This document shows, one piece after another, positions 25,915-63,483 of a stretch of DNA of 63,876 nucleotides. Position 1 is the stretch's first letter, and every line of letters begins with the position of its first letter. The translations under genes and the position numbers were made by a program. Origin of the DNA: a virus; the IMG/VR virus record IMGVR_UViG_3300026078_000003, positions 1 to 63,876 of that record. One strand, 5' to 3'. The notes beneath the pieces were generated by a model. The model was given only the letters and a program-made list of their open reading frames with translations. It made no database searches and was not told the origin of the DNA.

Positions 25915-25930
25915 GTCACCTAGAGAGGAC
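25915..25930 (+). promoter_or_regulatory. Candidate operator/activator site D: GTCAC-N6-AGGAC
   Basis: GTCACCTAGAGAGGAC is followed by GAGA and TGTGAC. Its right half, spacer and TGT-A box match the same order at 39.0 and 39.1 kb (AGGAC-GAG/AAA-N-TGTAAA). It ends 45 bp before the -35 box at 25976, the same distance as site B. The left half (GTCAC) is degenerate relative to GTCCT. Confidence 0.45.
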
Positions 25931-25975
25931 GAGATGTGACAATTGTAAAGAAGTTGTAAAAAACGCTGAGAAGAC

Positions 25976-26004
25976 TTGACGTGTGGGGACAGTGAGGGTA
26001 CACT
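25976..26004 (+). promoter_or_regulatory. Sigma70-type promoter for small rightward operon
   Basis: TTGACG (25976-25981), 17-bp spacer, TACACT (25999-26004). The predicted start of transcription, about 26011, lies just before a strong ribosome binding site and ATG at 26033. An AT-rich tract with the phrase aagttgtaaaa lies upstream; the same 11-mer appears before the 39.19 kb promoter. Confidence 0.65.
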
Positions 26005-26032
26005 TAAACAGTCAGAGAAAAGGAGATAAAAG

Positions 26033-26265: not shown

Positions 26266-26502
26266 ATGCTTCCAGAAGAGATTCGTTACTATCAAATGTC
26301 TAAGGTAGATCAGCGGAAAGTAGTCCGCGCAGCCCTGAAGCGGTGGAGAGAGCAAAATCCGACCAAACTTCCCGTGTCGTCTCTACGCCATGGTTGGTAT
26401 GGATGGTGTCTTGAAAGCACAAGCGGAGATCGTGGCATTGTCGCTAATGTCATGCGAGATTGTATTGTTCCCTACCTGCGAGAGAACGTAGAAGAAAAGT
26501 AA
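26266..26502 (+). CDS. Hypothetical protein, 78 aa
   Basis: ATG at 26266 with GGAGATC upstream, 11 bp after the RHH gene, so probably in the same operon. The sequence is basic and helical (LRHGWYGWCLESTSG in the middle) with no recognised domain. It ends before the 26609-29143 gene, with which it converges. The interval 26503-26608 holds only a short CTCGC/GCGAG inverted repeat that could be a terminator stem. Confidence 0.65.
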   Translation: MLPEEIRYYQMSKVDQRKVVRAALKRWREQNPTKLPVSSLRHGWYGWCLESTSGDRGIVANVMRDCIVPYLRENVEEK

Positions 26503-38157: not shown

Positions 38158-38424
38158 TTAGCTCCTAAAGCCCGACTGAAGAAGCTTCCGGGCTGAATCG
38201 GCGCTAGAACGAGCCTGAATAGCTCCCTTTGGAGCGTCGAATGCCTCTAGACGATCAGCCGCCGCGTCGAGAGCGGAAGCGAGTCTATCCACTTCCCGGC
38301 GCAACTCTCGAATGACGGCATCGCGGGGATCTTCCGGGGAACAAATCGGACACGTCGTGTAAGGCTGATAGTGGTGACCGTGCTCTCGGATCTCTTGCTC
38401 TGTGTACGTGATTTTATTACTCAT
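38158..38424 (-). CDS. Hypothetical protein, 88 aa
   Basis: N-terminal half carries TYTEQEIREHGHHYQPYTTC then PICSPED, a CxxC knuckle. The C-terminal half is helical (VIRELRREVDRLASALDAAA). The start overlaps the stop of the next upstream gene (ATGA at 38421-38424). Probably a small accessory protein. Confidence 0.65.
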   Translation of the reverse strand: MSNKITYTEQEIREHGHHYQPYTTCPICSPEDPRDAVIRELRREVDRLASALDAAADRLEAFDAPKGAIQARSSADSARKLLQSGFRS

Positions 38425-38735
38425 TCTATTTCTCCTGTTTTCATGAAGCGCTTTAATTGTTGTAATTCTTCGCCCTCGACTTTTTGCCTCGCATATTCGC
38501 CTTTCTTACTCAACACGAGCCGATGAACCGCCGCGCCGATACTCAACTCCCCGTCGTCTTTCGCGGTAACGTGACCGGCGGCGAGCAATCCTGGAAGTGT
38601 TGGCGGTACGTCGATGACAAGCCACGCGAACGAATCCGCGAAGATCCCGAGATAGGTATGCCCGTCGGGAGAAGATCGATAGCCGATCGCACGGACCCAA
38701 GAAGAGCGGGCAGGAGAGATGAAAGTGAGAGACAT
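38421..38735 (-). CDS. Hypothetical protein, 104 aa
   Basis: Alpha/beta sequence (GYRSSPDGHTYLGIFADSFA, LLAAGHVTAKDDGELSIGAA) with a compact operon position: ATGA overlap downstream, 7 bp after the 38743 gene upstream. No family was recognised. Confidence 0.65.
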   Translation of the reverse strand: MSLTFISPARSSWVRAIGYRSSPDGHTYLGIFADSFAWLVIDVPPTLPGLLAAGHVTAKDDGELSIGAAVHRLVLSKKGEYARQKVEGEELQQLKRFMKTGEIE

Positions 38736-38742
38736 TTTATTT

Positions 38743-38925
38743 TTATCCTCTCTTCTTATGCACAGGAACGACTACCAGGATAGTTTCTCCTTTCCTGTGT
38801 CCTTCTAAAAGAATAGCTTCCTCAAACATTCCGCCGTATAATTCTACTGTTTGTCCTGTGTGGTGAATAGCGTCACCCTTCCAATAGCCTGTTATCGTTT
38901 GAGCGATGCTGTTATTTTTGGTCAT
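38743..38925 (-). CDS. Hypothetical protein, 60 aa
   Basis: First gene of the leftward unit under the 38.98 kb promoter; GAGGAGAG precedes the ATG. The product ends ILVVVPVHKKRG; the middle (DAIHHTGQTVELYGGMFEEA) is beta-rich. No function is assigned. Confidence 0.6.
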   Translation of the reverse strand: MTKNNSIAQTITGYWKGDAIHHTGQTVELYGGMFEEAILLEGHRKGETILVVVPVHKKRG

Positions 38926-38951
38926 TTTGATTTCTCTCCTCTGATGTCCTC

Positions 38952-38980
38952 ATGTTCCCACACTTGCCCGCGCCTGTCAA
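38952..38980 (-). promoter_or_regulatory. Leftward sigma70-type promoter
   Basis: Minus strand: TTGACA (38975-38980), 17-bp spacer, GAACAT (38952-38957). It precedes the AGGAG and ATG of the 38743-38925 gene. The -35 box is perfect, the -10 box weak. Confidence 0.6.
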
Positions 38981-39026: not shown

Positions 39027-39042
39027 GTCCTCGAAAGTGGAC
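39027..39042 (-). promoter_or_regulatory. Candidate operator/activator site A
   Basis: Minus strand: GTCCACTTTCGAGGAC, then GAGT and TGTAAAA. It starts the shared element used at the leftward promoter, with 46 bp between its GGAC end and the -35 box. Confidence 0.55.
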
Positions 39043-39128: not shown

Positions 39129-39144
39129 GTCCTATTTCGAGGAC
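39129..39144 (+). promoter_or_regulatory. Candidate operator/activator site B
   Basis: GTCCTATTTCGAGGAC, followed by AAAA and TGTAAAA. A perfect 5-bp dyad (GTCCT/AGGAC). 45 bp separate it from the -35 box at 39190. The reverse complement of its right part, TTTACATTTTGTCCT, recurs exactly at 61054-61068. Confidence 0.6.
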
Positions 39145-39189
39145 AAAATGTAAAAGTTGTAAAATTTTGAGGGAAAGTGCGGAAAGGTG

Positions 39190-39218
39190 TTGACATACGA
39201 GGGAAGAGGCGAGAGAAT
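39190..39218 (+). promoter_or_regulatory. Rightward sigma70-type promoter
   Basis: TTGACA (39190-39195), 17-bp spacer, GAGAAT (39213-39218). The predicted transcription start, about 39225, lies upstream of the ATG at 39258, which rules out the longer reading frame starting at 39177. Confidence 0.6.
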
Positions 39219-39257
39219 GAAGATTGTCAGAGGAGAAAAAGGGAGAACAAAGAACCA

Positions 39258-39740
39258 ATGAGCAAAGGACAACGAATCACGGTTGACGGTCAGTCAGTGA
39301 CAATCGAAGCTACCGATCGCAGCAATTTTGGGCGCATTGCTTACTTTAGACTTGATGGAGTTTATCAGTGGGAATACGTCTCAGTTCTCACGGGCGGGAG
39401 AGAGAGAGAAATAGAAAAGATGTCTAATCGCTGGCAACCCGTCGAGTGCAGAGATAACGATCCCGAAAGAGTCTATTGGCGAATTTCGCGGCGTAATCCA
39501 GAAACACAAGAACGCGAATATGGACTAAGTGAAGACGAGAATGGAAGAGTGTTAGAGTTCGAGAATCGAGAACAGGCGCAGAGTGTTTGTGACAGTAGAA
39601 ACGGTAGTGATTTCGTGTATGATGACGAGAATGAGATTCGGATTAAACGCGGCAAGAATAGAGATAAGGCGGTGATTAAACCGCGAGTCGGCCCGGAAGC
39701 ATTAAGCGCGATATTGGCAGATTTAGACGATGACGACTAA
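39258..39740 (+). CDS. Early protein with shared C-terminal ALSAILAD peptide, 160 aa
   Basis: The start at ATG 39258 lies downstream of the predicted promoter start; GGGAG is about 12 bp before it. The protein begins MSKGQRITVDGQSVTIEA and is beta-rich and charged (WRISRRNPETQEREYG). It ends VGPEALSAILADLDDDD, almost the same as the ends of the proteins at 50103-50711 and (less closely) 49434-49901. It leads the rightward operon. Function is unknown. Confidence 0.75.
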   Translation: MSKGQRITVDGQSVTIEATDRSNFGRIAYFRLDGVYQWEYVSVLTGGREREIEKMSNRWQPVECRDNDPERVYWRISRRNPETQEREYGLSEDENGRVLEFENREQAQSVCDSRNGSDFVYDDENEIRIKRGKNRDKAVIKPRVGPEALSAILADLDDDD

Positions 39741-39767
39741 AACGGAATAAAATTAGAGGAAAAAAAA

Positions 39768-40052
39768 ATGAGCGATGCCAGCGGATATGTCGGAGAGTTT
39801 CTCAAGGAAATAACTATTCAGGGACGCATGGTTGGAGCCAAAGAGGAGCCGCTCGGAAATATGTCACATATTCGGGTCTATTCTTACAGCCCTTCGAGTG
39901 TTGCTCTACAGCTTCGGTCTCTCATTAGAGTGGGGCGCGGCTCGAAGGCACGCCAGGCGCACATCACGGCTCTACTCACGGACTCAGAGCTTGTTGAGCT
40001 TCGAGATTATCTAACCGATCTGATCGCCATTCGCGCCGAAAGGAGGCCTTAG
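39768..40052 (+). CDS. Hypothetical protein, 94 aa
   Basis: Second gene of the rightward operon, with GAGGAA before ATG. It contains a beta-rich N terminus (ITIQGRMVGAKEEPLG) and an alpha/beta rest. No known family. Confidence 0.65.
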   Translation: MSDASGYVGEFLKEITIQGRMVGAKEEPLGNMSHIRVYSYSPSSVALQLRSLIRVGRGSKARQAHITALLTDSELVELRDYLTDLIAIRAERRP

Positions 40053-40055
40053 AAA

Positions 40056-40244
40056 ATGAATCGAGAGCTTACCCTGAAGGAAACCAACACGGCAACGTTG
40101 CAGGCTAGACTAGACGAGCTGATGAGAATGGCTCAAGAACAGCTCGCATTCCACGAATTTCTCGACTGGCCCTTGTCCAACGACGATATCGAGCGTGAGC
40201 TTGAAGAGCGTAACGAGACCGAGCAGAAAGTGAGTAGGTGGTGA
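40056..40244 (+). CDS. Hypothetical protein, 62 aa
   Basis: Three bases after the previous stop, with AGGAGG ahead. The product is helical and acidic (LQARLDELMRMAQEQLAFHE). It is probably a small regulatory or accessory protein. Confidence 0.6.
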   Translation: MNRELTLKETNTATLQARLDELMRMAQEQLAFHEFLDWPLSNDDIERELEERNETEQKVSRW

Positions 40245-40248
40245 TAAA

Positions 40249-40476
40249 ATGAGCAAAGTAACTTTCGTCCCTAAGCCCGGCACTGAGTACGAATCCGGCT
40301 GGCCCGAGAAGGTAATCGGAGACGGCTTCATCAATCTCAGCTTGTGGGAAATTAATTATGGAGAGACGGAGGATGAGGACGACTCAGCGATCTATCAGGA
40401 CCAGTTCAATGATGAGTACGAGTTCTTCGATAAGACGGCTGGAGAGTGGACTGTCGAAGTTAGAGAGGATGGCTAG
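40249..40476 (+). CDS. Hypothetical acidic protein, 75 aa
   Basis: ATG at 40249, four bases after the preceding stop. Very acidic in its second half (EINYGETEDEDDSAIYQDQF). No domain is recognised. Confidence 0.6.
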   Translation: MSKVTFVPKPGTEYESGWPEKVIGDGFINLSLWEINYGETEDEDDSAIYQDQFNDEYEFFDKTAGEWTVEVREDG

Positions 40477-40483
40477 AGAGAAT

Positions 40484-40648
40484 ATGACCAAACGAATCAA
40501 ATCTGCTGAAATCAAATTCTATCTAGAACCTGAATTGCGCTCACAAGTCGAGCAAGATCGCGGTCTAGTATCGCTGTCAGCATGGATGCGAGACGCGATT
40601 AGATTGAAGCTGTCGAGTAACACGACGATAGACAGGAAAGAGGCTTAA
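40484..40648 (+). CDS. Ribbon-helix-helix (CopG-like) protein, 54 aa
   Basis: I take ATG 40484 as the start (GAGAGAAT upstream): MTKRIKSAEIKFYLEPELRS, then VSLSAWMRDAIRLKL. The pattern, a beta strand with FYL followed by helices and 'SLSAWMRDAI', is typical of CopG/Arc repressors. It resembles the protein at 26081-26254 in size and in the N-terminal MTKxR. It may regulate the rightward operon. Confidence 0.7.
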   Translation: MTKRIKSAEIKFYLEPELRSQVEQDRGLVSLSAWMRDAIRLKLSSNTTIDRKEA

Positions 40649-40650
40649 CG

Positions 40651-40866
40651 ATGCTCTCCGATTCAACTGTCCGCACGCTTCACGAGGCCATCAGAACCGA
40701 TCGCCTTTATGTCGTCATGCGCCGCGATGGTACGGCGTGGATAATGGAAGGTGGAGATGTTAAAGAAGTAGCCGACGAAGCGGAAAGTATTTGGGGTGTG
40801 GCGCCCTGGAGCGTGACGCCACTTGAGGGTATGTTACCGCTGCCACGAACGGAGATAAGGCCATGA
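40651..40866 (+). CDS. Hypothetical protein, 71 aa
   Basis: Two bases after the RHH gene and 4-bp overlap with the next gene (ATGA). Contains RRDGTAWIMEGGDVKEVADE. Unknown function. Confidence 0.6.
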   Translation: MLSDSTVRTLHEAIRTDRLYVVMRRDGTAWIMEGGDVKEVADEAESIWGVAPWSVTPLEGMLPLPRTEIRP

Positions 40867-41060
40867 GTACAAGCCTAATTCGATCAATTCAATGCGATTC
40901 TTGCGGCAAAGAGAGAACATTTGACGGTAGAACTTCTCTCCGTAACTGTCGAGAGATTTTATTAGTGCTCGGCTGGCGACGGACGAAGCGCCGAGATCTC
41001 TGTCGCGAGTGTTCGTGTGTAACTCCGAAGTCTATTAAGCCAGCAGAATCAAGTCGTTAA
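40863..41060 (+). CDS. Small zinc-binding protein, 65 aa
   Basis: CDSCGKERTFDGRTS and later LCRECSCV give a four- to five-Cys cluster. The last gene of the rightward operon; its end overlaps the end of the convergent small-terminase gene by 26 bp (41035-41060). No terminator is seen between them. Confidence 0.6.
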   Translation: MSTSLIRSIQCDSCGKERTFDGRTSLRNCREILLVLGWRRTKRRDLCRECSCVTPKSIKPAESSR

Positions 41061-42902: not shown

Positions 42903-43159
42903 TGTGGGAGATCACTCCGGTCAACTTCGATCTCTAGTAGCCTAAGCATCGCGACATGAACTTCATTGCCATCTACTCCATATTCAACGACTCTGCCGCC
43001 AATCAGATCAAAAGTAAGGCATTGTCTTGCTCCTTGCTTCCACGGACCAAAATCATCTAACATTACACCCTCGATAATTAGGCAGTCTAAATGATTTTCA
43101 TGCAATTTTTCAATCGTAATTGGAAATAGCCGCCATGCATCAAACGTTGTGTTAGTCAT
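42899..43159 (-). CDS. Hypothetical protein, 86 aa
   Basis: Start taken at ATG 43157-43159 (MTNTTFDAWRLFPITIEKLH) after GGGGAGGATTGAA; its start overlaps the polymerase stop (ATGA). Contains GARQCLTFDLIGGRVVEYGV. Unknown function. Confidence 0.6.
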   Translation of the reverse strand: MTNTTFDAWRLFPITIEKLHENHLDCLIIEGVMLDDFGPWKQGARQCLTFDLIGGRVVEYGVDGNEVHVAMLRLLEIEVDRSDLPQ

Positions 43160-44565
43160 TTCAATCCTCCCCATGTTTTCGCAAAATGTCCTTCCGCGCT
43201 AATCGGCACTCGCAATTTAACCCCGCTATGATTTATCATTCCGTCGAGCACAAGATTACTCAGCTCGTCTTGGGTCTCTTGTGCTTCATCACACGTAAAA
43301 ATGTACTCATCGTGCACCTCCAGTCGCCAATCAATCCCTCTTCCTCTCTGCTGTAAAGTATACACCCGAGGCCCTAGCCACGCCATCGCCGCCTGTGCCA
43401 TGTGTTGGGCCGTCCCCTGGATGACCAAGTTGAAGGCTTGGCGGGCGGCTTCAGCGGCCTCTCCACGGCGGCTGGAGCGGATCGAGGGCAGGTAGCGGAT
43501 CATCCCGGGCTGGCGCCCCCGGCCGTAGTAGTCGCGGATAAAGCCGGTCTGGCGAACGAAAGACTCGACGGCTCGTGAAGCTCTTCCCAGCTCCGGATAG
43601 ATCTCGTCTCTAATATCGTTACAGAGTTTCTCGCAATCTTCAACGTTCCCCCATGGATGCGTGCCGTCCTCATTAAGAGGGATATTCATGAAGAATTGAT
43701 CTTGAAGACCGAGACCCGCGAGACCATTTAAAACTCCAAATGTTGCAGTTTTTGTCGGATTGCGTTCTCTGTCGGTAACGTCTTCTAGACGGATGCCATA
43801 GTTACGGGCTGCGGCCTCGCGGTGAGGATCGCGAGATTTATGTTTGGCGTTCTCAGATTTTTTGCATTTAGAGACAGAGGGTAAGCGTTCGCCACAATAG
43901 CGACAGGTGGTGAAAATTTCGTGAAGGAATTCGTCTTCTGAGAAATCAGCGGCAACGCATAGCTCCTGCGCGCTAAAGTCGAATGAGGCAAATAGTTTCC
44001 CTTCGGGCGCGACGTAACATGCACGGACCATCTTGCCAATTTCTGAACGAGTCGGCATTTGTAATAGCGGCGGCTTTGCAATACTCAAGCGTCGCGATAC
44101 AACAGTAACCGGCTGGATATTACCGTGAATGTAGAATAGATCGGATTCGGGTTCGCCAGCATCTTCGCGACGCGCTGCTTCATCTTCCATCAAGTCTAGA
44201 ATGAATTTGACGTATTTTGATTTGATAGATAAATGTTCCTTGATCGTGAAGTTGAGACCCACAAAAGCATCGGTATGGCGGGCATGTTCGATTGATTTTT
44301 TGCCGACGGATATGCCTTTTTTCGTTCTCTTGCGCGCGACAACTCCGCGACGTTCGATTTCGTCCGCAACTTGTGGTTGAGAGTTAACATTAATGCGATA
44401 TCCGAGAAGAGTGTTGAGTTGATTTTGAAGGCGGTTTGTAGTTGAGTCTACGTAAGCGGACAGAGCTTCAAATTTCGAGCGTGACGCTGGCATTCCATTG
44501 CGCTGCATTTCCTCGAAAATAGGAAGCACGCGCATGGCTTGAGAGTGAAGATGAGAGAGGCTCAT
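43156..44565 (-). CDS. Family A DNA polymerase, polymerase part
   Basis: 469 residues. Motif A is near residue 193 (FASFDFSAQEL, replacing DYSQIEL), motif B near residue 270 (KTATFGVLNG), and motif C near residue 417 (EVHDEYIF). There is no exonuclease domain; that is in the gene at 45569-47005, separated by three small genes. Together they would form a split PolA for phage replication. A GC-rich patch (about 43370-43600) covers the part just before motif C. Confidence 0.9.
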   Translation of the reverse strand: MSLSHLHSQAMRVLPIFEEMQRNGMPASRSKFEALSAYVDSTTNRLQNQLNTLLGYRINVNSQPQVADEIERRGVVARKRTKKGISVGKKSIEHARHTDAFVGLNFTIKEHLSIKSKYVKFILDLMEDEAARREDAGEPESDLFYIHGNIQPVTVVSRRLSIAKPPLLQMPTRSEIGKMVRACYVAPEGKLFASFDFSAQELCVAADFSEDEFLHEIFTTCRYCGERLPSVSKCKKSENAKHKSRDPHREAAARNYGIRLEDVTDRERNPTKTATFGVLNGLAGLGLQDQFFMNIPLNEDGTHPWGNVEDCEKLCNDIRDEIYPELGRASRAVESFVRQTGFIRDYYGRGRQPGMIRYLPSIRSSRRGEAAEAARQAFNLVIQGTAQHMAQAAMAWLGPRVYTLQQRGRGIDWRLEVHDEYIFTCDEAQETQDELSNLVLDGMINHSGVKLRVPISAEGHFAKTWGGLK

Positions 44566-44804
44566 TGCTCGAATTTTTGAACTTTGGATAGAGCTATGGC
44601 ATTTGCGTCAACTTCATGCATTCCGAGAGAAGTCAGAAAATACGCTAGACCTTGGCGCATAGGGGGTATCGTTGTATCAGAGCCCATTCTTTCAGATGTC
44701 GTCCAGGAACGTAAATCGGCGGTCCATATCTCTTTGCCGTTTACGTGAGCTACCACTGTGAATAGTTTCTCGTATAATCCATCAGGCTTACGTGGCTCGC
44801 TCAT
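44562..44804 (-). CDS. Hypothetical protein, 80 aa
   Basis: Overlaps both neighbours slightly. Contains FTVVAHVNGKEIWTADLRSW and MGSDTTIPPMRQGLAYFLTS. Unknown. Confidence 0.6.
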   Translation of the reverse strand: MSEPRKPDGLYEKLFTVVAHVNGKEIWTADLRSWTTSERMGSDTTIPPMRQGLAYFLTSLGMHEVDANAIALSKVQKFEQ

Positions 44805-45132
44805 TTACTCTTATCCCCTCTATCTTAATGTTTCTCTTCCGTGCTAGTTCCGCGCAAACATCGCAAGGATCAATAGGCATCAAAGCGCCGCGTTTATTCA
44901 CACGAATAATAACGATTCGGCTAAGCGATCTTGGCGAATTAAATATCACTTTCTCTTCCGCATGAGAGCCGCGTTTGCCCCGTGATACGTTCGCAGGACC
45001 GTTCGTCGCGATAGAGATAATCGTTCCTCGTGCGTCTAGACCAGCCGCGACGACGCGTTGAGAACAGAAACGATGGACACGTAATCCTGCGCGGATCATT
45101 CGAGAGATCAAGATAGAAGAATGGCATCTCAT
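44788..45132 (-). CDS. Small deaminase-like zinc protein
   Basis: 114 residues. HAE (57-59) and PCDVC (89-93), with a basic linker, match the zinc-site motif pair of the cytidine deaminase superfamily (H-A-E and P-C-x2-C). The gene starts by overlapping the NADAR stop (ATGA). It is short for CDA-type enzymes, so the substrate (nucleoside, nucleotide or nucleic acid) is unclear. It stands in the insertion between the two parts of the polymerase. Confidence 0.65.
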   Translation of the reverse strand: MRCHSSILISRMIRAGLRVHRFCSQRVVAAGLDARGTIISIATNGPANVSRGKRGSHAEEKVIFNSPRSLSRIVIIRVNKRGALMPIDPCDVCAELARKRNIKIEGIRVNERAT

Positions 45133-45572
45133 TTCAAATTCTTTCTTATCTCATCGCGAATTTCCATCAATAACTTGCCCAGATGATTCTCTCCTTCATT
45201 TTGCCCATCTACACCCCAGAAACGATCGCCCCAAGTATTTCCTTCAATGAGGACAACACTGCCGGTTGCTAATAGTTTAGAACACAAAACAGAATTTCGG
45301 AATTTCTGTCTAAGAAGCGAACGCATAACAGGAATTCGTAACTGATTCCATCCTTCACGTAAAGTAACTACACGGCCTAGCCGCTTAGCTTCTCCGGGCG
45401 TTTTTGCGTTTCGTATTGTTTCTCTTTGGTTTACATTAATTGTTTTTGCTGCCTGATACGCATGTTCTACAGACGGATAGATCATTTCATCTAGTGTCAC
45501 AACACAAGGCCAGAAATTAGAAAGGAACCTATACGGTCCTTGAAAGTTGTTTATCTTGCTTGGAATAGTCAT
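45129..45572 (-). CDS. NADAR-domain protein (candidate anti-DarT factor)
   Basis: 147 residues. FQGPYRFLSNFWPCVVTLDE, the motif PSVEHAYQAAKT (Glu36), GNTWGDRFWG (112-121) and NHLGKLLMEIRDEI (129-) match NADAR over the full domain. NADAR proteins remove ADP-ribose from guanosine-modified DNA, and a phage NADAR (AdfN) overcomes DarTG defence in T4-like phages. This gene probably has that role; that is inference from family. The start overlaps the upstream polymerase-exonuclease stop. Confidence 0.9.
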   Translation of the reverse strand: MTIPSKINNFQGPYRFLSNFWPCVVTLDEMIYPSVEHAYQAAKTINVNQRETIRNAKTPGEAKRLGRVVTLREGWNQLRIPVMRSLLRQKFRNSVLCSKLLATGSVVLIEGNTWGDRFWGVDGQNEGENHLGKLLMEIRDEIRKNLK

Positions 45573-47005
45573 TTTACGCTCCTTGTTTTTTCGTCTAATT
45601 CTCTGTCCCGTTCATCCATCGCGATAGACAGCTTCGGTTTAAGCCGACCAGTCGCGTCCGGATCGCGGCCAGCGTAATATATTGCTCTCTTTAACGGAAT
45701 ATCATCTAGCGTTCCGTAAGGAAATACTCCATACAATCTCTCGACAGGCGCGCGGACAAACTTAGGGATTTTTCGCCAGCGTTTCGCGGGATCAGTCGGC
45801 CCGTCTGCATTGACTTTGCCGCTTTCGACGTCGGATACGATGCGGTCGATATACGCGCCAATAGAGTTATATTGTTTTGGTTTATAGCTGCCGTCGCTTT
45901 GGCGCAAAACAACGATATCCGGTTTATTCCATTTTCGTTGTGCTGCGATTTTCAGATACTCCACTTGCTTTTGTTTTCCGATGTCGCCAATCAATAACGT
46001 ATATTCCTCCATTTTCATCTGAAGCCAACGATACGCCAGAGTTTTGAGCGATTTTGATTCCAAACGCAATAGATACGCCGAGTACATTGTATCCCAAATC
46101 TCGGCGTAACGCAACTCTAATCCCATCGAGCGGCATATCTGTGTATCAATCATACAGCCGGAAGGTGTTCCCGCTTGATGAGTGATATAGGTTGTGCCGC
46201 GTTCGGCGCAGGTCTGAAGATAAGAAATCGCGTCGTCGAAATCATCTCGTGAACATCTCAAGACATAGCCGATCCCGGGTTCTGGCGAGATCTGAACCGA
46301 CCAGGGGTTAGATACCCAGCCCTCGGTGTCCATTCCAAATTCAAGAGGCGCAGAAAGAACAGAGTCATGATAGGGCTCTAGAAGAGAGATAAGCTCACGT
46401 CCGCCAACATCGTGATATTGTTCTTTGCCGTCGAGAGGATCGGGGGTAACGAGGAATTCAGATAAAGCGGCATTAGGATTCGAGCGCAGTATTTTGCAGA
46501 ATTTGGCGACGGTAGCATAATCTTCCGCGATCTGTGGCTTCATATCGGTAGAATGAAAGCCGAACGCGGGATGATATATTGGTAAGATGTAAATGAGTCG
46601 ATTTGTGTCAGGCTCGCGCCACGAAAATAACAAACGATGTACGTCTTCTAGATCACAATTTGGGTCTAGAAACCATCGCGCCGCAAATCGGCCGACAGCG
46701 ATAATTAATCTCGGTTGCTTATCTCGGATCTCATCTAGTAGAGCCTGCCGCCAGAAAGAAATTAACTCAGGCGTAGGATCGGGATTGCCCGCGATGTATG
46801 TTTTACATACGTTGGTTTTATACCACGAACGCGACGAGACATTATGAGGCTCTAGATACCATTCCTGTTCCAGTCCAGAGCGTCCGACAAATGGGCGTCC
46901 TTTATAGAATTCTTCCTCGCCTGGAGCCTCGCCGATAGACATGACGATAGAGCGGCCCGGAGGACCAAAACCATAGACGGCGGAAGAGAGAGGATCGAAA
47001 TCCAT
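45569..47005 (-). CDS. UDG-like domain fused to 3'-5' exonuclease (PolA-type)
   Basis: 478 residues. The N-terminal part has the uracil-DNA-glycosylase family pattern (GEAPGEEEFYKGRPFVGRSG near residues 26-45, and IYHPAFGFHS near residue 155). The C-terminal part has a DnaQ/PolA-type DEDD exonuclease (FGMDTEG near residue 223, WDTMYSAYLL later). This resembles SPO1-type DNA polymerases, which carry a UDG-like module, but is separated from the polymerase domain. The pair would form a replication enzyme. Confidence 0.85.
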   Translation of the reverse strand: MDFDPLSSAVYGFGPPGRSIVMSIGEAPGEEEFYKGRPFVGRSGLEQEWYLEPHNVSSRSWYKTNVCKTYIAGNPDPTPELISFWRQALLDEIRDKQPRLIIAVGRFAARWFLDPNCDLEDVHRLLFSWREPDTNRLIYILPIYHPAFGFHSTDMKPQIAEDYATVAKFCKILRSNPNAALSEFLVTPDPLDGKEQYHDVGGRELISLLEPYHDSVLSAPLEFGMDTEGWVSNPWSVQISPEPGIGYVLRCSRDDFDDAISYLQTCAERGTTYITHQAGTPSGCMIDTQICRSMGLELRYAEIWDTMYSAYLLRLESKSLKTLAYRWLQMKMEEYTLLIGDIGKQKQVEYLKIAAQRKWNKPDIVVLRQSDGSYKPKQYNSIGAYIDRIVSDVESGKVNADGPTDPAKRWRKIPKFVRAPVERLYGVFPYGTLDDIPLKRAIYYAGRDPDATGRLKPKLSIAMDERDRELDEKTRSVK

Positions 47006-47023: not shown

Positions 47024-47248
47024 CTAGTCGAAAATCAAAACGGGAACATTGACCAATTTTGAATTCGGATTGGAATGACAGAAAGGACAGGTCGGTCCGC
47101 AATAATAGACGATGCCACAAATTATATGAGCATCAATTCTGTATTCATCAATAAATCTTAAGGTCAGAATTTGGCCAGATTCTCGCGTGATTATCGGAGT
47201 ATCGTCGGGACACTCCGCGAGCGCCTCAATTAGTTCTTTCTTTGTCAT
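47024..47248 (-). CDS. Hypothetical CxxC protein, 74 aa
   Basis: ATG preceded by GGAGATAA, which is itself part of the repeat array beginning at 47248. The product MTKKELIEALAECPDDTPII, then TCPFCHSNP, is a small protein with a CxxC pair. It is followed by the UDG-exonuclease gene. Confidence 0.65.
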   Translation of the reverse strand: MTKKELIEALAECPDDTPIITRESGQILTLRFIDEYRIDAHIICGIVYYCGPTCPFCHSNPNSKLVNVPVLIFD

Positions 47249-47545
47249 TTTATCTCCTGTTCCTTGTCGCTCCTCTGATATGGTTATCTCTACTATTTTG
47301 ACTCGCTCCGGTTCATTGGTTATCTTCCGCTATGTGACTCGCTCGTGCCACTAGATTATCTCGTCCGTTATGGCTCGCTCAAGCGGCTTGGTTATCTCAC
47401 GCCAGGCGACTCGCTCACTCCTTATGATTATCTCCAAACAAAGGGCTCACTCATCCCAACATGTTTATTTCTCTTCTCATTGATTCGCTAACCTCTTATG
47501 ATTATCTCCGTCTGCGTGGCTTACTTCGCTCTGTTATCTTCTCTC
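47248..47545. repeat. 18/36-nt tandem array, main block (8 units)
   Basis: A regular array of a 36-nt unit: GGTTATCTC, 9 variable bases, GACTCGCTC, 9 variable bases. Block A copies begin at 47248, 47282, 47318, 47354, 47390, 47426, 47463 and 47500. Block B copies begin at 47266, 47300, 47336, 47372, 47408, 47444, 47482 and 47518. Spacing is exactly 36 from 47282 to 47426. The variable 9-mers are mostly different. The two blocks on the minus strand read GAGATAACC and GAGCGAGTC, similar to each other, so the array may have come from an 18-nt unit. Confidence 0.85.
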
Positions 47546-48357
47546 GCGATATAGTCCACATGGTGTAGAATCGCAATTGCATACGGCACTGGCGCTTTGA
47601 CACCTAAAATCTCTTCGCACATTACCTCGTGAAGATGAGCTAAGAAGATCTTGACCGCATAGCGCTTCGCTCTAGCGTGAATATGCGCTGGTGGTAGCTT
47701 TCCTTCACTATAGGCTTTGTAGGCTTCGGTATCCTTACCGATGTTTTTGATCTCAAGAACTCTCGCGGCCTGATCTTTAAACTGAAGCTCATCGTTTCGT
47801 CTGGTTTCTAGCTCTTTGCGCTCGCGATAGAGTCGCCCGTAGACGGATTTTTCATTGTTGCTTATCTTGACAAAGGATTCGCCCGCTTTCCAGCAAACGA
47901 CTTTTAGGCGCGCGTTAAATGGACGGCGTTCACCTTTCTTCCATGTAATGGTCGGATCGAGTCCAGCGAAACGCCAGATGTGGCATGCTGTCGGGGCTTT
48001 GTGAATGTCGATGTGGGCCAGTAATCCCGCAGCAATGACAGGTCCGATACCTGTGACCGAAATGAGCCATTGGCCTACTTTATCGTTCTCGACATAAACT
48101 TTCAGGGCGCGCTTGATCTGATTTTCGAGAGTCTCGCTCTGTCCTGCTAGCCATTGGAGTACGCTATGTGGTTCTTCGGAGGCATTGAGAGCGCGGACAC
48201 GCTCGCCTGACCGGATTCGATCCTCTTGCATGGAGTAATAGGAATCGACCAGGAAACGAGCCTCGCCTGGACTGAGAGTAGATGAGGCGCTAGAGAGATC
48301 GCGCGTAAGTCGCTGAACGGGATCAAGAGACACAATAGAGCTGTTTTCGTCATGCAT
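47521..48357 (-). CDS. IS110-like protein (Transposase_20/HhH domain)
   Basis: About 278 residues, start taken at ATG 48355-48357 (MHDENSS, GAAAGGA upstream). LISVTGIGPVIAAGLLAHID, then RFAGLDPTITWKKGERRP, corresponds to the C-terminal Transposase_20 domain of IS110/IS116/IS902 transposases. The usual N-terminal DEDD/RuvC domain is absent, and the region around the expected catalytic Ser is not clearly conserved. The gene is flanked on both sides by an 18/36-nt repeat array. It could be a domesticated guide-RNA-type protein or a decayed transposon. Confidence 0.7.
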   Translation of the reverse strand: MHDENSSIVSLDPVQRLTRDLSSASSTLSPGEARFLVDSYYSMQEDRIRSGERVRALNASEEPHSVLQWLAGQSETLENQIKRALKVYVENDKVGQWLISVTGIGPVIAAGLLAHIDIHKAPTACHIWRFAGLDPTITWKKGERRPFNARLKVVCWKAGESFVKISNNEKSVYGRLYRERKELETRRNDELQFKDQAARVLEIKNIGKDTEAYKAYSEGKLPPAHIHARAKRYAVKIFLAHLHEVMCEEILGVKAPVPYAIAILHHVDYIAREDNRAK

Positions 48358-48401
48358 GAAGAAAATTCCTTTCTCGAAGGTAGACAAACTTCAGGAAGTA
48401 T

Positions 48402-48679: not shown

Positions 48680-48862
48680 TCAGCCAAAACCACTTGATTT
48701 ATCGTAGACGTGACCATCCAATAACAAGGGTTTCTCATCGTCTATGTACTTAAGGAGGCGGCGCAAATCTTTAACAGGAATTTGGGCTAAGCCAAGCTTT
48801 ACGATTTTGTGCACGCGTTTGGTCATAAAATTGCTCCTTATCGATCTAATAAAATTCCTCAT
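48680..48862 (-). CDS. Hypothetical protein, 60 aa
   Basis: Between two small genes in the early leftward region with good spacing. Contains KIVKLGLAQIPVKDLRRLLK. The first residues overlap the next upstream gene's end. Unknown. Confidence 0.55.
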   Translation of the reverse strand: MRNFIRSIRSNFMTKRVHKIVKLGLAQIPVKDLRRLLKYIDDEKPLLLDGHVYDKSSGFG

Positions 48863-49106
48863 TTATTCGTTTATCGATCTCAGCGTCTAAATCTTCCGCC
48901 GTAGCTGTGGCGCGGCCGAACCATTCCTGAGCATTTCTGGTGCAAAAATAACGCCATCTGATCGCGTCGGCGACGACCTGTTCTAGTTCAGGTGGTGCAG
49001 GATAGAAGGAATCCAATCCTTGCGGATAAAGATCTCGAAGTGCTTGAACTAGAGCACCGTGCGCGATTTGTTCAATTACTTCGCTAGAGATTTCTAATTT
49101 TTTCAC
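48846..49106 (-). CDS. Hypothetical protein, 86 aa
   Basis: Start taken at GTG 49104-49106, which overlaps the upstream stop (GTGA). The sequence is helical (EISSEVIEQIAHGALVQALR, VVADAIRWRYFCTRNAQEWF). No family is recognised. Confidence 0.55.
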   Translation of the reverse strand: MKKLEISSEVIEQIAHGALVQALRDLYPQGLDSFYPAPPELEQVVADAIRWRYFCTRNAQEWFGRATATAEDLDAEIDKRINEEFY

Positions 49107-49433: not shown

Positions 49434-49901
49434 TTAGTCTTCCGCAAGCATCGCGGCGAAATCCTCAGGCGCCACACGCTCACTGTGCTGGCGGTCGAAG
49501 GTCGGAACCTCAGGAGCGTCTGCCGGAAGCTGACCGGCCGCGACGTACTTCTCGCGCTGCTTTCGCATGGTGTTGATTGTAGATGAGACCTTGACGGGCG
49601 TGATGCGATCCGCGATGTCAGCGAACTCCGGCAGCGACTTGAGATGAGCCGCGACGGCAGACGGCGTAACCTGCCCGGCGATCTCACCCTTACGCATACG
49701 CCGCATGGTCTTCGTAATGAGCTTGAGCTGTTCCTGCGTCAGCGGCAGAGAGGGCTGGCGCTCCTTGGCCGTAGCGGCCTCGCCAGTGGTCTCCTGGGAG
49801 CCGTTCTCGGCAGCGGTAGCGGTCTCAGGGGCAGTCACGGTAGCATCCACAGTCTCTTCAGTGACAGAGGGCTTGACAGCAGCGGCGGTGGGTTTAGGCA
49901 T
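49434..49901 (-). CDS. Basic/alanine-rich protein with shared C-terminal peptide
   Basis: 155 residues. N-terminal half is low-complexity (Ala/Thr/Glu), the middle helical and basic (KLITKTMRRMRKGEIAGQVT), the end VAPEDFAAMLAED. That end matches the C-terminal tails of the proteins at 50103-50711 and 39258-39740. It has its own promoter (50011-50040) and a terminator, as expected for an abundant protein. A DNA-associated role is possible. Confidence 0.7.
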   Translation of the reverse strand: MPKPTAAAVKPSVTEETVDATVTAPETATAAENGSQETTGEAATAKERQPSLPLTQEQLKLITKTMRRMRKGEIAGQVTPSAVAAHLKSLPEFADIADRITPVKVSSTINTMRKQREKYVAAGQLPADAPEVPTFDRQHSERVAPEDFAAMLAED

Positions 49902-50102: not shown

Positions 50103-50711
50103 TCAATCATCGCCATCGTCATCTGCCAAAATGGCACTAAGAGCGCCAGGAGCCACACCGCGCGACGTCTCGGGTTTGGACGTAGAAGAACCAAACGAGC
50201 CTGTCTTTATAGGTGTGCGTCTCTCGGCTCTAGGCTCACGCGGTTCTTTTCTTTCTTGACGGTCGCATCCGTCGATCTCCCACGCGCGCGTTTTACCTGA
50301 ATCGTCAAGCGATTCCGCGTGTTGAGAAGGATTGACTCCGGCAGAATGGATAAGCTTTTGTGATTTTAAAGTGTTTCGCAATCTATCGGCTTGATTTACT
50401 AGTTCTTGCGCGAGAGTTTCGCAACGCCCTATAAGCAGTTGTGTTTTTTCGCGAGTTATTTGTTCTGCATCACTACATAAGACAAGCTCACCGCGCGTTG
50501 TAGATGTCAAAGCGGGCCATTCTGTTTCAATCGCGGCGACATATCCCGTGCGTGTCTCTCTAAAGCGAGTGATTACGCCGAGTTTTGCAGGAAATGATGG
50601 AAACTCTGCGTCACGAGCAAGACTGGGAGCGAAATCTGAGAGTGACGAATGCACCACGGAGGATGAAGGATCAAAGGCGTCCGCGAGCGAGAAGATCTCT
50701 TTGTTTTTCAT
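50103..50711 (-). CDS. Hypothetical protein with shared C-terminal peptide, about 202 aa
   Basis: Start chosen at ATG 50709-50711 (MKNKEIFSLADAFDPSSSVV) because GGAG lies at the right distance and the ATG overlaps the SLOG stop (ATGA). The middle is mixed alpha/beta (LGVITRFRETRTGYVAAIET), the C-terminal part basic, and the end VAPGALSAILADDDGDD. The tail matches the protein at 39258-39740. Confidence 0.7.
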   Translation of the reverse strand: MKNKEIFSLADAFDPSSSVVHSSLSDFAPSLARDAEFPSFPAKLGVITRFRETRTGYVAAIETEWPALTSTTRGELVLCSDAEQITREKTQLLIGRCETLAQELVNQADRLRNTLKSQKLIHSAGVNPSQHAESLDDSGKTRAWEIDGCDRQERKEPREPRAERRTPIKTGSFGSSTSKPETSRGVAPGALSAILADDDGDD

Positions 50712-50936
50712 TTGACGCTCCGACACTTGAGCCATTCCGACCAAAGATTAGTTACAGGTTTATTTTTAGCCTTCGCGTATTGTAGCGTTTTAAACGTGCC
50801 GCCATAAGTATCGCCGTTGTAGAGCGCCAGAAAGATGAGATAGAATAAATCTAGTGAGCTTGTCTAGATCAGGCCGTGAATAAGATAATCCAAGTCTTGG
50901 CGGTCTGTGTCCTGTTCCGGCGAGCACGTTAGGCAT
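50708..50936 (-). pseudogene. Decayed SLOG / DUF1273 (YspA-like) gene with internal deletion
   Basis: From ATG 50934-50936 the frame gives MPNVLAGTGHRPPRLGLSYS, the start of the DUF1273/SLOG fold (aGTGHRPxxLG). After about 45 codons it is joined, in another frame, to LALYNGDTYGGTFKTLQYAK and KNKPVTNLWSEW, the end of the same fold. The central nucleotide-binding part is missing. The stop at 50708-50710 overlaps the next ATG, so the operon spacing is preserved. Confidence 0.7.
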
Positions 50937-53658: not shown

Positions 53659-53841
53659 TTATAGATTCCTCTCTTTGATATGCGATCCGATCGCAGCTTG
53701 CCAGAACTCATCCCACTGTGCTTTTAGTCGATCATCCTCTAGGCGCTGTCTCTCTGGCGTTGACGGAACTGTAGTTACTCCATCATGACGGCGATTACGC
53801 CGTCTCTGAAGAATATTAGATTTAGTACGTTTAGTTTTCAT
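53659..53841 (-). CDS. Hypothetical basic protein, 60 aa
   Basis: I take ATG 53839-53841 (MKTKRTKSNILQRRRNRRHD), overlapping the end of the upstream gene. Very basic N terminus; end AIGSHIKERNL. Possibly nucleic-acid-binding. Confidence 0.55.
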   Translation of the reverse strand: MKTKRTKSNILQRRRNRRHDGVTTVPSTPERQRLEDDRLKAQWDEFWQAAIGSHIKERNL

Positions 53842-54217
53842 GATGCTCACGCACCAACGCGACAATCTTATTCATCAAGTCATCATTTTGTCTAACAACA
53901 TCCTTTTGATTCGCCTGCAATAGCGCTGCGTTTAAAGCATCATAAACCATGTCGCTATATTCGTCTAGTCTGTCCAGTTGGTGCAGTTGAAAAATGATCG
54001 TGGCGAACTGATCGATCATTTTATACGAATGGTACCATTTTCGATTGCCAGCACACCCCGCGAAACCATAAGCGCCACGATAAATCACATAAGTATTATA
54101 ATATCGATCTAGCGGCCAATCTCCAGGCCGCGAAAACGTGATCGCGAAGAAAAGGTTTTGTGGCTCAATTTGAATTTCATGAACTGAAGAGTTAGTCAGT
54201 TTTAGTTTTTCTGTCAT
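53831..54217 (-). CDS. Hypothetical protein, 128 aa
   Basis: Mixed alpha/beta; FAITFSRPGDWPLDRYYNTY and LHQLDRLDEYSDMVYDALNA. Good ribosome binding site (AAGGAG). Unknown role within the recombination gene group. Confidence 0.6.
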   Translation of the reverse strand: MTEKLKLTNSSVHEIQIEPQNLFFAITFSRPGDWPLDRYYNTYVIYRGAYGFAGCAGNRKWYHSYKMIDQFATIIFQLHQLDRLDEYSDMVYDALNAALLQANQKDVVRQNDDLMNKIVALVREHHEN

Positions 54218-54228
54218 GTGCTTTCTCC

Positions 54229-54852
54229 TTAAGCCACCAGCAAATCTCTAAGCTCTTTTCGTTCTTTCTTTTCTTGATAATACTTCCAAGCGTCATCTGC
54301 GTTCGCTCGCAGCATGTTCCAATTGCGTTCAAGTTGCTGCATTGTCCAGTTCTCTTCCCATTCGTAATATTCTGGCAAGGTATCTTCTAGATTATATCGG
54401 TTATAATTTCCATTGACGAAACCGATATGGAGGCGCCCTTTCGAGCTTATATCAAGTATGTAGACGTAAGCCATGAGCTGAATCCAGAACTTCCAGATTT
54501 TCGCGCTAGACATATCGTTTTTACTGGACATCCAAGTTAGTTTGATCTCATGAACACAACAGAGAATCCAATCTAACAAGTCTGGTGAGCCAACGATATT
54601 ATCTTTCTTAATCTCGCCTATCTCAGAGTAACGTTTTGGTTCATCTTGCATCATGCGTAATTTTAATCCAGCTTCGTGCGCTAGACCGAGCTGCATTCGC
54701 GTCATCTCGCGAGGAGTGATTTCGCCTTCAGATTCATCGTATATACCGCGTTTAACGCACAAATAGTGGACGATATGCGAGACGTGCAATCCGCCAGAGC
54801 GCCGAGTTAGCGGCACTAAGTTTGTTATGCCGGAGCGAACGAGAACAGGCAT
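54229..54852 (-). CDS. PD-(D/E)XK (RecB/Cas4-like) nuclease
   Basis: 207 residues. GSPDLLDWILCCVHEIKLTW contains the G-x-x-D and E-x-K elements of the nuclease core, and a conserved Gln-containing helix follows (FWIQLMAYVYIL). Cas4-like nucleases occur next to Sak4-type genes in phages. It probably processes DNA ends for recombination. Confidence 0.75.
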   Translation of the reverse strand: MPVLVRSGITNLVPLTRRSGGLHVSHIVHYLCVKRGIYDESEGEITPREMTRMQLGLAHEAGLKLRMMQDEPKRYSEIGEIKKDNIVGSPDLLDWILCCVHEIKLTWMSSKNDMSSAKIWKFWIQLMAYVYILDISSKGRLHIGFVNGNYNRYNLEDTLPEYYEWEENWTMQQLERNWNMLRANADDAWKYYQEKKERKELRDLLVA

Positions 54853-60900: not shown

Positions 60901-60993
60901 TGTCGAGAGCCCCTTTCAAGGTAGCACGTCAACTCTGATCTCGCCTCACGGCTTTTACGCCCAGCCCGACTTACCTCTGAGGCGCTCTCGACA
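60901..60993 (-). ncRNA. Candidate structured leader RNA
   Basis: On the minus strand TGTCGAGAGC (60993-60984) pairs with GCTCTCGACA (60910-60901). Inside, GCCTCA (60983-60978) pairs with TGAGGC (60948-60943), stacking directly on the first stem. AGGTA (60976-60972) can pair with TACCT (60923-60919) as a pseudoknot across the structure. It starts close to the predicted transcription start (about 60992) and ends just before the GAGGAGG of the first gene. No known riboswitch class was recognised. Confidence 0.5.
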
Positions 60994-60998
60994 AAGAA

Positions 60999-61027
60999 AC
61001 ACTATCCCGCTTTTTGTGCCAGATCAA
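60999..61027 (-). promoter_or_regulatory. Candidate leftward early promoter
   Basis: Minus strand: TTGATC (61022-61027), 17-bp spacer, TAGTGT (60999-61004). The match is moderate, but it would start RNA about where the outer stem of the leader begins. The GTCCT-N6-AGGAC element lies 36 bp upstream of the -35 box, about one helical turn closer than at the other three promoters. Confidence 0.4.
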
Positions 61028-61063
61028 GCCGGTTTGGGGCCTTTTACAGAAAATTTACATTTT

Positions 61064-61079
61064 GTCCTGTTTTGAGGAC
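61064..61079. promoter_or_regulatory. Candidate operator/activator site C
   Basis: GTCCTGTTTTGAGGAC, a perfect 5-bp dyad, with TTTACATTTT before it. The 15-mer TTTACATTTTGTCCT is identical to the reverse complement of 39140-39154 region sequence. The site lies between the early leftward promoter and the XRE gene promoter. Confidence 0.6.
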
Positions 61080-61109
61080 GTTTGCGGCTCCCGATCGTGT
61101 CTCTGATGA

Positions 61110-61139
61110 TTGACAAGATTATCCGCGAGCATCTATTCT
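61110..61139 (+). promoter_or_regulatory. Promoter of the XRE gene
   Basis: TTGACA (61110-61115), 18-bp spacer, TATTCT (61134-61139). Predicted start about 61146, upstream of ATG 61185. The operator-like site C lies 31 bp upstream, which would allow autoregulation. Confidence 0.6.
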
Positions 61140-61184
61140 AATCTTCAATCGCGGCTCTATAAATGAAAGTGAGCCAAACTCAAA

Positions 61185-61466
61185 ATGTCAACGTCGCCAA
61201 TGTCAAGTTCTCTTAATCCCGACGATCGTTTTTACAATATCGATTTCGTTATCGATCAAATCGGCTATCGTCCTCTTGCCCGTCGCGCTAACTTGAGCGC
61301 CGGTCACGTTCATCGCGTGTTGAACGGCAAAATCAAGAGCCCTGTTCTCGGGACTCTACGGAAGCTTTCGGCGGCTTCGCAAATCTCGCTAGATGATTTG
61401 ATTTTCTATGTCGAGAAGCAGATGGATTTAAGTAGAAAGAACGCAAGAACAGCGAACGCGGCCTAA
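61185..61466 (+). CDS. XRE-type HTH regulator
   Basis: 93 residues (start ATG 61185; ATG 61200 is an alternative). VIDQIGYRPLARRANLSAGH, then VHRVLNGKIKSPVLGTLRKL and SAASQISLDDLIFYVEKQ, is a lambda-repressor-like helix-turn-helix (xLARRANLSAGHVHRVLNG). It is the only clear HTH repressor of the phage and may bind the GTCCT-N6-AGGAC sites. It converges with the late operon, whose last gene ends at 61494. Confidence 0.85.
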   Translation: MSTSPMSSSLNPDDRFYNIDFVIDQIGYRPLARRANLSAGHVHRVLNGKIKSPVLGTLRKLSAASQISLDDLIFYVEKQMDLSRKNARTANAA

Positions 61467-61493: not shown

Positions 61494-61991
61494 TTATCTA
61501 TGCAGTGAGAAATAAACAGTAACCAGTGTCGCGACCAGGCCTATTGCACCCATAATAACCTTCGTCGTCAATGTCATTCCTTCTTCGCGGTTTTCAAATC
61601 GGCTCACGCGTCTCTCTACAGTTTCAATGGTTTTATTTGTCGCTTCCAGTCTCGTATAGAGATTATCTACAAGCGACTGAACCCACGGTTTAATATTATT
61701 ATGCGTCTCTAATTTCTGCTCAGCAAATTCTTCCGTTTTGGCAGCAAGAAGCTTGTTAGCTTCAATCGTTGCCGCTCCTGTTTCCTTGACCGCAGTTAGC
61801 GCTATCGTCAGTGCTTCTTTGGTGGAAGATAAAGCGAGAGCAGCGGCGGCTTCTTGAGCTTTGAACCGCTGTTCATCGCGCTTTTCTTTTTCAGCGAGAA
61901 GACTCTCAAAATACTCTTTCAGAGAGATAGAGATAGACTCATCTTTTTGTGGCCGTTTCATTTCAGGAAGCCTGTTATTTGTATATGGCAT
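61494..61991 (-). CDS. Coiled-coil protein with C-terminal membrane segment
   Basis: About 165 residues. Long charged helical region (KEKRDEQRFKAQEAAAALAL), a coiled coil with an ETVERRVSRFENREEG end, and a C-terminal membrane helix VIMGAIGLVATLVTVYFSLH. The layout resembles phage tail-anchored lysis or virion-entry proteins. It is the last gene of the late operon. ATG 61989-61991 is preferred over the TTG just before it. Confidence 0.65.
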   Translation of the reverse strand: MPYTNNRLPEMKRPQKDESISISLKEYFESLLAEKEKRDEQRFKAQEAAAALALSSTKEALTIALTAVKETGAATIEANKLLAAKTEEFAEQKLETHNNIKPWVQSLVDNLYTRLEATNKTIETVERRVSRFENREEGMTLTTKVIMGAIGLVATLVTVYFSLHR

Positions 61992-62302: not shown

Positions 62303-62335
62303 GGCCACAAAGCTTTCCGTCTGACCGTCTAGATC

Positions 62336-63213: not shown

Positions 63214-63483
63214 TTAAATATCTCCCGGTTTCAGTGACGCTTGACGACGATGATACTCGCTCGGCGACCGCTGTTCAGTGCTCGCGGCGCCTACGTATTT
63301 CTCAATTTCGGCCGCGATCTTGGCAACTTCATTCGTCGCGGCAATAAACCTATCTCGCATTCCGTAAGTTGGCTGCGTGATCGGCGCATTTAGCAAAATC
63401 GAAGCGTTCATGCACTGCATTGTCTGAGTGAGAGCGTTTCCGTTGTCAATGATCTGTTTCGCGCAGGGAAGGCCACCCATCAT
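63214..63483 (-). CDS. Hypothetical protein, 89 aa
   Basis: MMGGLPCAKQIIDNGNALTQ, then GMRDRFIAATNEVAKIAAEI. A helical protein, 50 bp upstream of the 62336-63163 gene, touching the stop of the membrane protein gene. Unknown. Confidence 0.6.
   Translation of the reverse strand: MMGGLPCAKQIIDNGNALTQTMQCMNASILLNAPITQPTYGMRDRFIAATNEVAKIAAEIEKYVGAASTEQRSPSEYHRRQASLKPGDI

Follow-up and report, generated by a model that had tools for sequence, protein, structure and literature searches.

At class I promoters of the CRP type, a dimer site lies upstream of the -35 box and works at distances one helical turn apart, with centres at -61.5, -71.5, -82.5 and -92.5, and the alpha-CTD of the polymerase sits next to the activator. 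T4-type phages carry mobile regulatory promoter cassettes, in which a promoter module is repeated before small early operons and the gene content is shuffled. The Mnt operator has GTCC/GGAC arms, with a half-site spacing that differs from that of the dyad described below. A phage-encoded dimer, p4 of phi29, acts at the late promoter A3, which has a poor -35 box; it is reported to bind an inverted repeat (CTTTTT-15 bp-AAAATG) that has A-tracts in the site and to activate via the polymerase (PMC3100819). The ribbon-helix-helix (RHH) protein AmrZ is reported to activate as well as repress (PMC3325190), and a dimer site of M.SsoII to repress one gene and stimulate another (PMC6100179).

The window analysed here is the whole 63,876-nt stretch of IMGVR_UViG_3300026078_000003, a tailed-phage genome with PHROGs matches to portal, large terminase, split DNA polymerase and helicase proteins. 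Its first 127 bases are identical to its last 127 (1-127 and 63750-63876, direct terminal repeats), which makes a complete phage genome unit probable; no tRNA was found in it. By protein identity (portal 54%, tail protein 60%, polymerase halves 45-47%), IMGVR_UViG_3300005719_000012 (67,694 bp, hereafter G002) is a true yet distant relative, and the two are uncultured bacterial viruses far apart in relatedness. G002 was the only relative recovered by tail and portal alignments, and the window terminase protein found none in IMG/VR. Among cultured phages, the tail protein had no match and the portal matches listed were at 30% identity or below. The window polymerase is divided between the ORFs 45569-47005 and 43156-44565, which small ORFs separate (region 43156-47005), unlike the single 934-aa protein of G002, and the product of 47521-48387 has a strong PHROGs 'transposase' match (E 4.7e-54).

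Four sites in the window, A (25915, +), B (39129, +), B' (39042, -) and C (61079, -), carry a composite element (Table 1). Each has a GTCCTC-N4-GAGGAC-like dyad, then after 4-5 nt TGTAAA (TGTGAC at site A), with one or two copies of (T)TGTAAA on the promoter side of the dyad, and beyond these a TTGA(C/T) box. The initial annotation had reported this motif at three promoters, at 25.98 (+), 39.19 (+) and 38.98 kb (-), with 45, 45 and 46 bp between AGGAC and the -35 box; all three are present and the spacings correct. Its view of site C as the same element one helical turn closer, at 36 bp, also fits, because G002 has a 35/36-bp version with good TTGACA/TTGACG boxes. Three features had not been joined to this evidence there: TTGTAAA repeats in addition to TGTRAM, a leader motif, and the RHH gene behind A with its conservation. 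The candidate promoter of site C was absent from the matches of the promoter scan. ORFs drawn by the crude ORF caller across the regions of A, B' and C are judged spurious because they overlap promoters.

Table 1. Parts of the four window elements, the genes behind them and the XRE gene near site C; matrix scores are from the matrix trained on the G002 sites.
Feature	Position	Strand	Remarks
Site A dyad GTCACCTAGAGAGGAC	25915-25930	+	score 19.2, weakest of the four window dyads
Site A TGTGAC and two TTGTAAA copies (25943, 25954)	25935-25960	+	
Site A promoter TTGACG-17-TACACT	25976-26004	+	45 bp past dyad
Site A leader motif GTCAGAG	26011-26017	+	6 nt past -10
RHH protein, 57 aa	26081-26254	+	downstream of A; Pfam TacA1 (PF08681), 27.3 bits, cut-off 21
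Small ORF, function unknown	26266-26502	+	behind A; no Pfam match
Site B dyad GTCCTATTTCGAGGAC	39129-39144	+	score 32.9
Site B TGTAAA and TTGTAAA copies	39149-39163	+	
Site B promoter TTGACA-17-GAGAAT	39190-39218	+	45 bp past dyad
Site B leader motif GTCAGAG	39226-39232	+	7 nt past -10
Seven small same-strand ORFs	39258-41060	+	behind B
Site B' dyad GTCCACTTTCGAGGAC	39027-39042	-	score 34.6
Site B' single TTGTAAA	39017-39023	-	
Site B' promoter TTGACA-17-GAACAT	38952-38980	-	46 bp past dyad
Site B' leader motif ATCAGAG	38939-38945	-	6 nt past -10
Small ORFs 38743-38925, 38421-38735, 38158-38424	38158-38925	-	behind B'
Site C dyad GTCCTCAAAACAGGAC	61064-61079	-	score 32.0
Site C two TGTAAA copies	61043-61059	-	
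Site C candidate promoter TTGATC-17-TAGTGT	60999-61027	-	36 bp past dyad; weak; without leader motif
XRE (HTH_26) protein	61185-61466	+	own promoter TTGACA-18-TATTCT at 61110-61139

G002 has four complete copies of the element: a at 35201 (+), b at 43033 (+), c at 61520 (-) and d at 64200 (-). Their TTGAC boxes follow after 46, 35, 36 and 45 bp, respectively; in the exact IMG/VR scan, four stretches matched, two of them on G002. A search of G002 for the dyad with up to one mismatch, promoters being ignored, gave six places. The fifth (54322, +) is a poorer dyad without TTGTAAA and with TTGACT at 46 bp, and the sixth (56779) lies inside the polymerase gene without a TTGAC at that distance. Five of the six thus have TTGAC at 35-46 bp on one strand, compared with 1.6% per strand by chance; for a random strand position, the chance of TTGAC at a gap of 35-46 bp is 1.4% in the window and 1.6% in G002.

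Neither the bare dyad nor bare TTGTAAA was accepted as a signal, their counts being not above chance. With up to two mismatches, the window holds 21 dyads against 17.3 expected (no enrichment) and 31 copies of AGGAC-N4-TGTRAM against 38, and TTGTAAAA with up to one mismatch occurs 60 times against 60 expected. The full composite departs strongly from chance expectation: when three mismatches were allowed, only B, C and B' matched (three matches) and a backwards control gave none, site A having four mismatches. When 26-column matrices were trained on the sites of one phage and run on the other, both ranked the other phage's four sites first. The window-trained matrix scored them at 36.2, 32.9, 32.2 and 27.0 in G002, with 12.9 next; in the reverse direction (Table 1) the next score was 14.6, on the other strand of B, followed by 9.3 or less, so that the motif is not found equally often inside genes, the finding by which the initial annotation would have been refuted. 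The best score in 40 Markov-random copies of the window averaged 12.7 and reached 20.1, and in 40 random copies of G002 it was at most 17.7. Site A falls below the random maximum for the window and would not stand out by its 26 bp alone; what marks it out is its TTGTAAA pair together with the spacing, the promoter and the leader. Pairs of the form TGTAAA-N3-7-TGTAAA occur five times in the two genomes, each time inside an element, and G1, T2, C3, G13, G14, A15, C16, A18, G22, T23 and A25 are invariant over the eight sites. Mean pairwise identity is 64% over the 42-bp element, compared with 28% in the 40 bp before it and 33% in the 30 bp past the -10 box, so the element is not one recently copied block. 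By these comparisons of the two genomes, the composite promoter element is real and is conserved within a single phage lineage.

Beyond the two phages, the IMG/VR pattern scans recovered only L003 (contig G001), L005 (G003), L021, L022 and L028, and the full architecture is absent from all of them. No TTGAC lies at 35-46 bp in the DNA read for G001, L005 and L028, and the G001 and G003 hits were on that ground judged chance; in L021 and L022 the gaps are 32 and 42 bp and TTGTAAA is shifted. A wrong-spacer control gave two hits, a background equal to the two additional hits that the correct pattern produced. G001, an unrelated viral contig, has (L016, around 2388-2378) a GTCCTC/GAGGAC dyad 4 nt upstream of a good promoter, TTGACA-17-TAGTAT; there the TTGACA directly adjoins the dyad on the other strand, which is a different layout. 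The genome collection gave four single hits of the composite with TTGAC, with gaps of 30, 49, 52 and 46 bp, and the last (L023, Zhouia amylolytica, TTGTAAAATCTTTG) was rejected as lying inside a cobalamin riboswitch of 91.5 bits. Listed matches of the element DNA to cultured phages were only at E ~ 9, and no title or abstract describing such an element was found in the open-access literature. The pattern scans were strict and diverged elements could escape them; with no further convincing member in IMG/VR or the genome collection, the element looks lineage-specific. These hits bear on the idea that the element is read by a host regulator and was borrowed by the phage. The phage promoters are sigma-70-like, no phage RNA polymerase is among the families listed for the proteins scanned, and the phage binder is only a candidate so far, all of which would suit a host protein. 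The collection, with its four scattered stretches, speaks the other way, weakly, since the host is possibly unsampled and the pattern strict; we regard a borrowed host regulator as distinctly unlikely.

Two other readings of the element itself were rejected. The eight sites can be read in one frame as a conserved protein tail, S-x-x-x-D-E/K-x-stop, but of the elements only G002 b and c coincide with a listed ORF read that way, and the nucleotides at third codon positions and immediately ahead of the frame vary little or not at all. As an RNA hairpin or terminator, the element, inspected by eye, has mismatched pairs that are uncompensated, lacks a T-run and precedes its own promoter; an Rfam search of the window, which found no family, also speaks against this reading. 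The dyad, unlike the T4-type cassettes, is upstream of the promoter and outside the transcript, which makes it a DNA site and not a leader stem-loop.

The -35 boxes are TTGAC(A/G) in seven of the eight promoters and TTGATC in C, with spacers of 17 bp (18 in d); in those seven the -35 is near consensus, and the -10 boxes are poor. A leader motif, RTYARAG, lies 6-7 nt past the -10, at the expected start, in six of eight (A, B, B', b, c and d, being missing from C and a). A search of both genomes for TTGA(C/T) with RTYARAG, ignoring the element, gave eight hits including all six of these promoters; the other two, at 53402 and 36885 of the window, are inside ORFs and without the element. With the motif start taken as +1, the dyad centres are at about -79 to -80 or -88 to -90. 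From the last TGTAAA copy to the -35 there are 22, 33, 43 and 22 bp in the window and 34, 32, 22 and 33 bp in G002, and with a period of 10.5 bp the dyad and the last TGTAAA copy each keep phase with the -35 (p ~ 6e-5, eight sites). When each distinct gap is counted once, p is about 0.01 for the dyad and 0.006 for the last TGTAAA; equal gaps could also stem from cassette copying. The TGTAAA arm is on the promoter side in all eight sites.

The helically periodic distances of the upstream site (35-36 and 45-46 bp) are a feature that these promoters share with the class I type, and the dimer-like dyad at turn-spaced distances is analogous to the CRP-type arrangement. It differs in that the dyad is unlike a CRP site, the centres are near -80 and -90, and binder and alpha contact are predicted. 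The arrangement described for phi29 p4 likewise has an inverted repeat upstream of a host-polymerase promoter with A-tracts present; in the element studied here the dyad reads GTCC-N8-GGAC, directly repeated A-tracts adjoin it, and the promoter has a good -35. The phasing of the tracts (22, 32-34 and 43 bp) would also suit a simpler case, in which the TTGTAAA tracts work by themselves, with no activator, as displaced alpha-CTD sites of the UP type, the dyad being incidental or having some other role. The usual UP element is nearer the promoter than these tracts, and GTC and GGAC are invariant in all eight sites, which makes this extremely improbable.

The proposal that a shared regulator acts at a fixed distance, already made from the first three promoters, gains support because eight sites in two phages keep gaps of 35-36 or 45-46 bp in one orientation. 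Regulation by a shared dimeric protein appears well supported by the arrangement of these sites, and activation seems more likely than repression. A dimeric regulator would bind the dyad, centred near -80 or -90 from the presumed start, and sit on the same face of the DNA as the polymerase. It would act as a class I-like activator, placing alpha-CTD on the adjoining TTGTAAA A-tracts, and host RNA polymerase would then read the small-gene operons marked by the element. For this whole scheme, a composite element with a dimer-bound dyad, class I-like activation of host RNA polymerase and a probably phage-encoded binder, we would put the chances at about even. Against it stand the near-consensus -35 with a poor -10, an unusual sign for class I dependence, and the weakness of the site C promoter.

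The same near-consensus -35 boxes do not obviously need help, and RHH and XRE proteins are mostly repressors. A phage repressor could instead spread or loop from the dyads, shutting the operons together. The promoters of B and B' diverge from a shared intergenic region in which the two sites are 102 bp apart centre to centre, and the helical phase suits loops too. Sites A, C and those of G002 each stand as one strong copy, no further site over the promoter scoring high, 35-46 bp is short for loops, and a simple operator needs no promoter-side TGTAAA arm, yet all eight sites have it; repression by looping or oligomers is therefore considered unlikely.

The -35/-10 spacers of five G002 promoters, at 35263 (+), 43084 (+), 61468 (-), 64139 (-) and 54384 (+) (loci L012-L015), contain palindromes: CGGACCGGTCCG, GTACTC-N5-GAGTAC, GTGCATATGCAC, GTGC-GCAT-GCAC and GCAAATTTGC. 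Three of the five reach a score level that 1.7% of random 21-mers attain. In the window, no spacer palindrome was found at A, and none by eye at B, B' and C. It could be speculated that these phages have an undescribed promoter class, in which a 57-aa RHH protein acts as a class I activator from the GTCCTC/GAGGAC dyad and passes alpha-CTD to the neighbouring TTGTAAA tracts, combined with operon-specific spacer-palindrome repressor sites in G002. This is improbable on present data; if true, there would be one common 'on' switch and operon-specific 'off' switches.

The XRE protein had been put forward in the initial annotation as the best candidate for the binder, so that it would bind all four window sites and regulate its own gene from C. 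A 16-bp dyad suits a helix-turn-helix dimer, and 30 bp separate dyad C from the XRE gene's own -35 (TTGACA at 61110), which lies on the opposite side, with the TGTAAA arm facing away. The operator of the M.SsoII regulatory domain, AGGACAAATTGTCCT, shares AGGACAAA-TGT letters with B and C (PMC6100179); its AGGAC arms point the opposite way, no M.SsoII-type methyltransferase was identified near the window sites, and the shared letters are likely a coincidence. XRE is disfavoured because G002 carries four elements without a recognisable ortholog (blastp, none at E <= 0.01, and 0 of 1 record at E <= 1). The HTH_3-like proteins of G002 are weak matches, and the one compared with XRE, at 47105-47392, lies in another genomic setting and has a different predicted recognition helix. 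Control of the element by XRE is thus very unlikely.

Of the proteins compared, the RHH protein behind A is the only one found to be conserved in both phages that also belongs to a recognised family of DNA-binding regulators (G002 ortholog at 61496-61909, 50% over 48 aa). If the binder is phage-encoded, as would be most likely, this protein is the best candidate, a tentative assignment that falls somewhat short of even; a small phage protein of no recognised family is about as likely. Its RHH fold is indicated by the PF08681 match, above the cut-off, and its structural model is of modest confidence (pLDDT 68.8), the best Foldseek matches being KacA, TacA and AtaR chains at E 0.27 or weaker. 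It thereby shares the RHH family with Arc, Mnt and AmrZ, and its Pfam and fold matches are nearer the TacA/AtaR/KacA antitoxins. Its strand PxFxxR presumably resembles that of Arc/Mnt. The strand residues that we take, by Arc numbering, to contact bases are I/H/R in the window protein and N/P/R in the G002 ortholog, a partial conservation by which its specificity is not clearly conserved. An antitoxin of the TacA type would have a GNAT toxin gene next to it; the next ORF, 26266-26502, lacks a Pfam match, and no acetyltransferase is among the 24 families listed for 70 small window proteins. Against cultured phages, the RHH protein matched four Gordonia records at E ~ 0.1. A 64-aa protein of G002 (48781-48975) weakly matches the C-terminal domain of RNA polymerase alpha, with 19.0 bits where the cut-off is 23.8.

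The genes behind the element are short and mostly of unknown function, and from strand and spacing they appear to form operons. Their content is, by the orthologs found, conserved but shuffled between the phages. The first ORF behind B (39258-39740) has a G002 ortholog (50% over 60 aa) which, like that of the RHH protein, lies in the same-strand stretch after element d. The ORF 38421-38735, behind B', shares 49% identity with G002 60909-61202, behind element c. RHH proteins recur behind A (26081, TacA1) and a (36751, RHH_1), both above cut-off, behind b (43962, NikA-like, just below cut-off), behind d (61496, by homology only) and behind B (40484-40648, by eye only). Several otherwise different small proteins end in a leucine-rich acidic tail (e.g., ALSAILADxDDD, RLNTLLAED), perhaps a docking signal; they are encoded at 39258-39740, 50103-50744 and 49434-49901 of the window and at 53744-54343, 62317-62583 and 63245-63460 of G002.

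The same short DNA switch, at a helix-matched distance in two phages, points to one shared regulator for a set of genes, and we propose that the element marks a regulon of small-gene operons. This regulon of small genes of unknown function is defined from sequence alone, with a second phage confirming it, in a lineage to which this analysis could assign no close cultured phage. Transcription is predicted to start near 26011, 39226 and 38945. If the RHH protein is the binder, it would be an unusually small phage activator, and the element may serve as a marker for small-gene operons in related phages.
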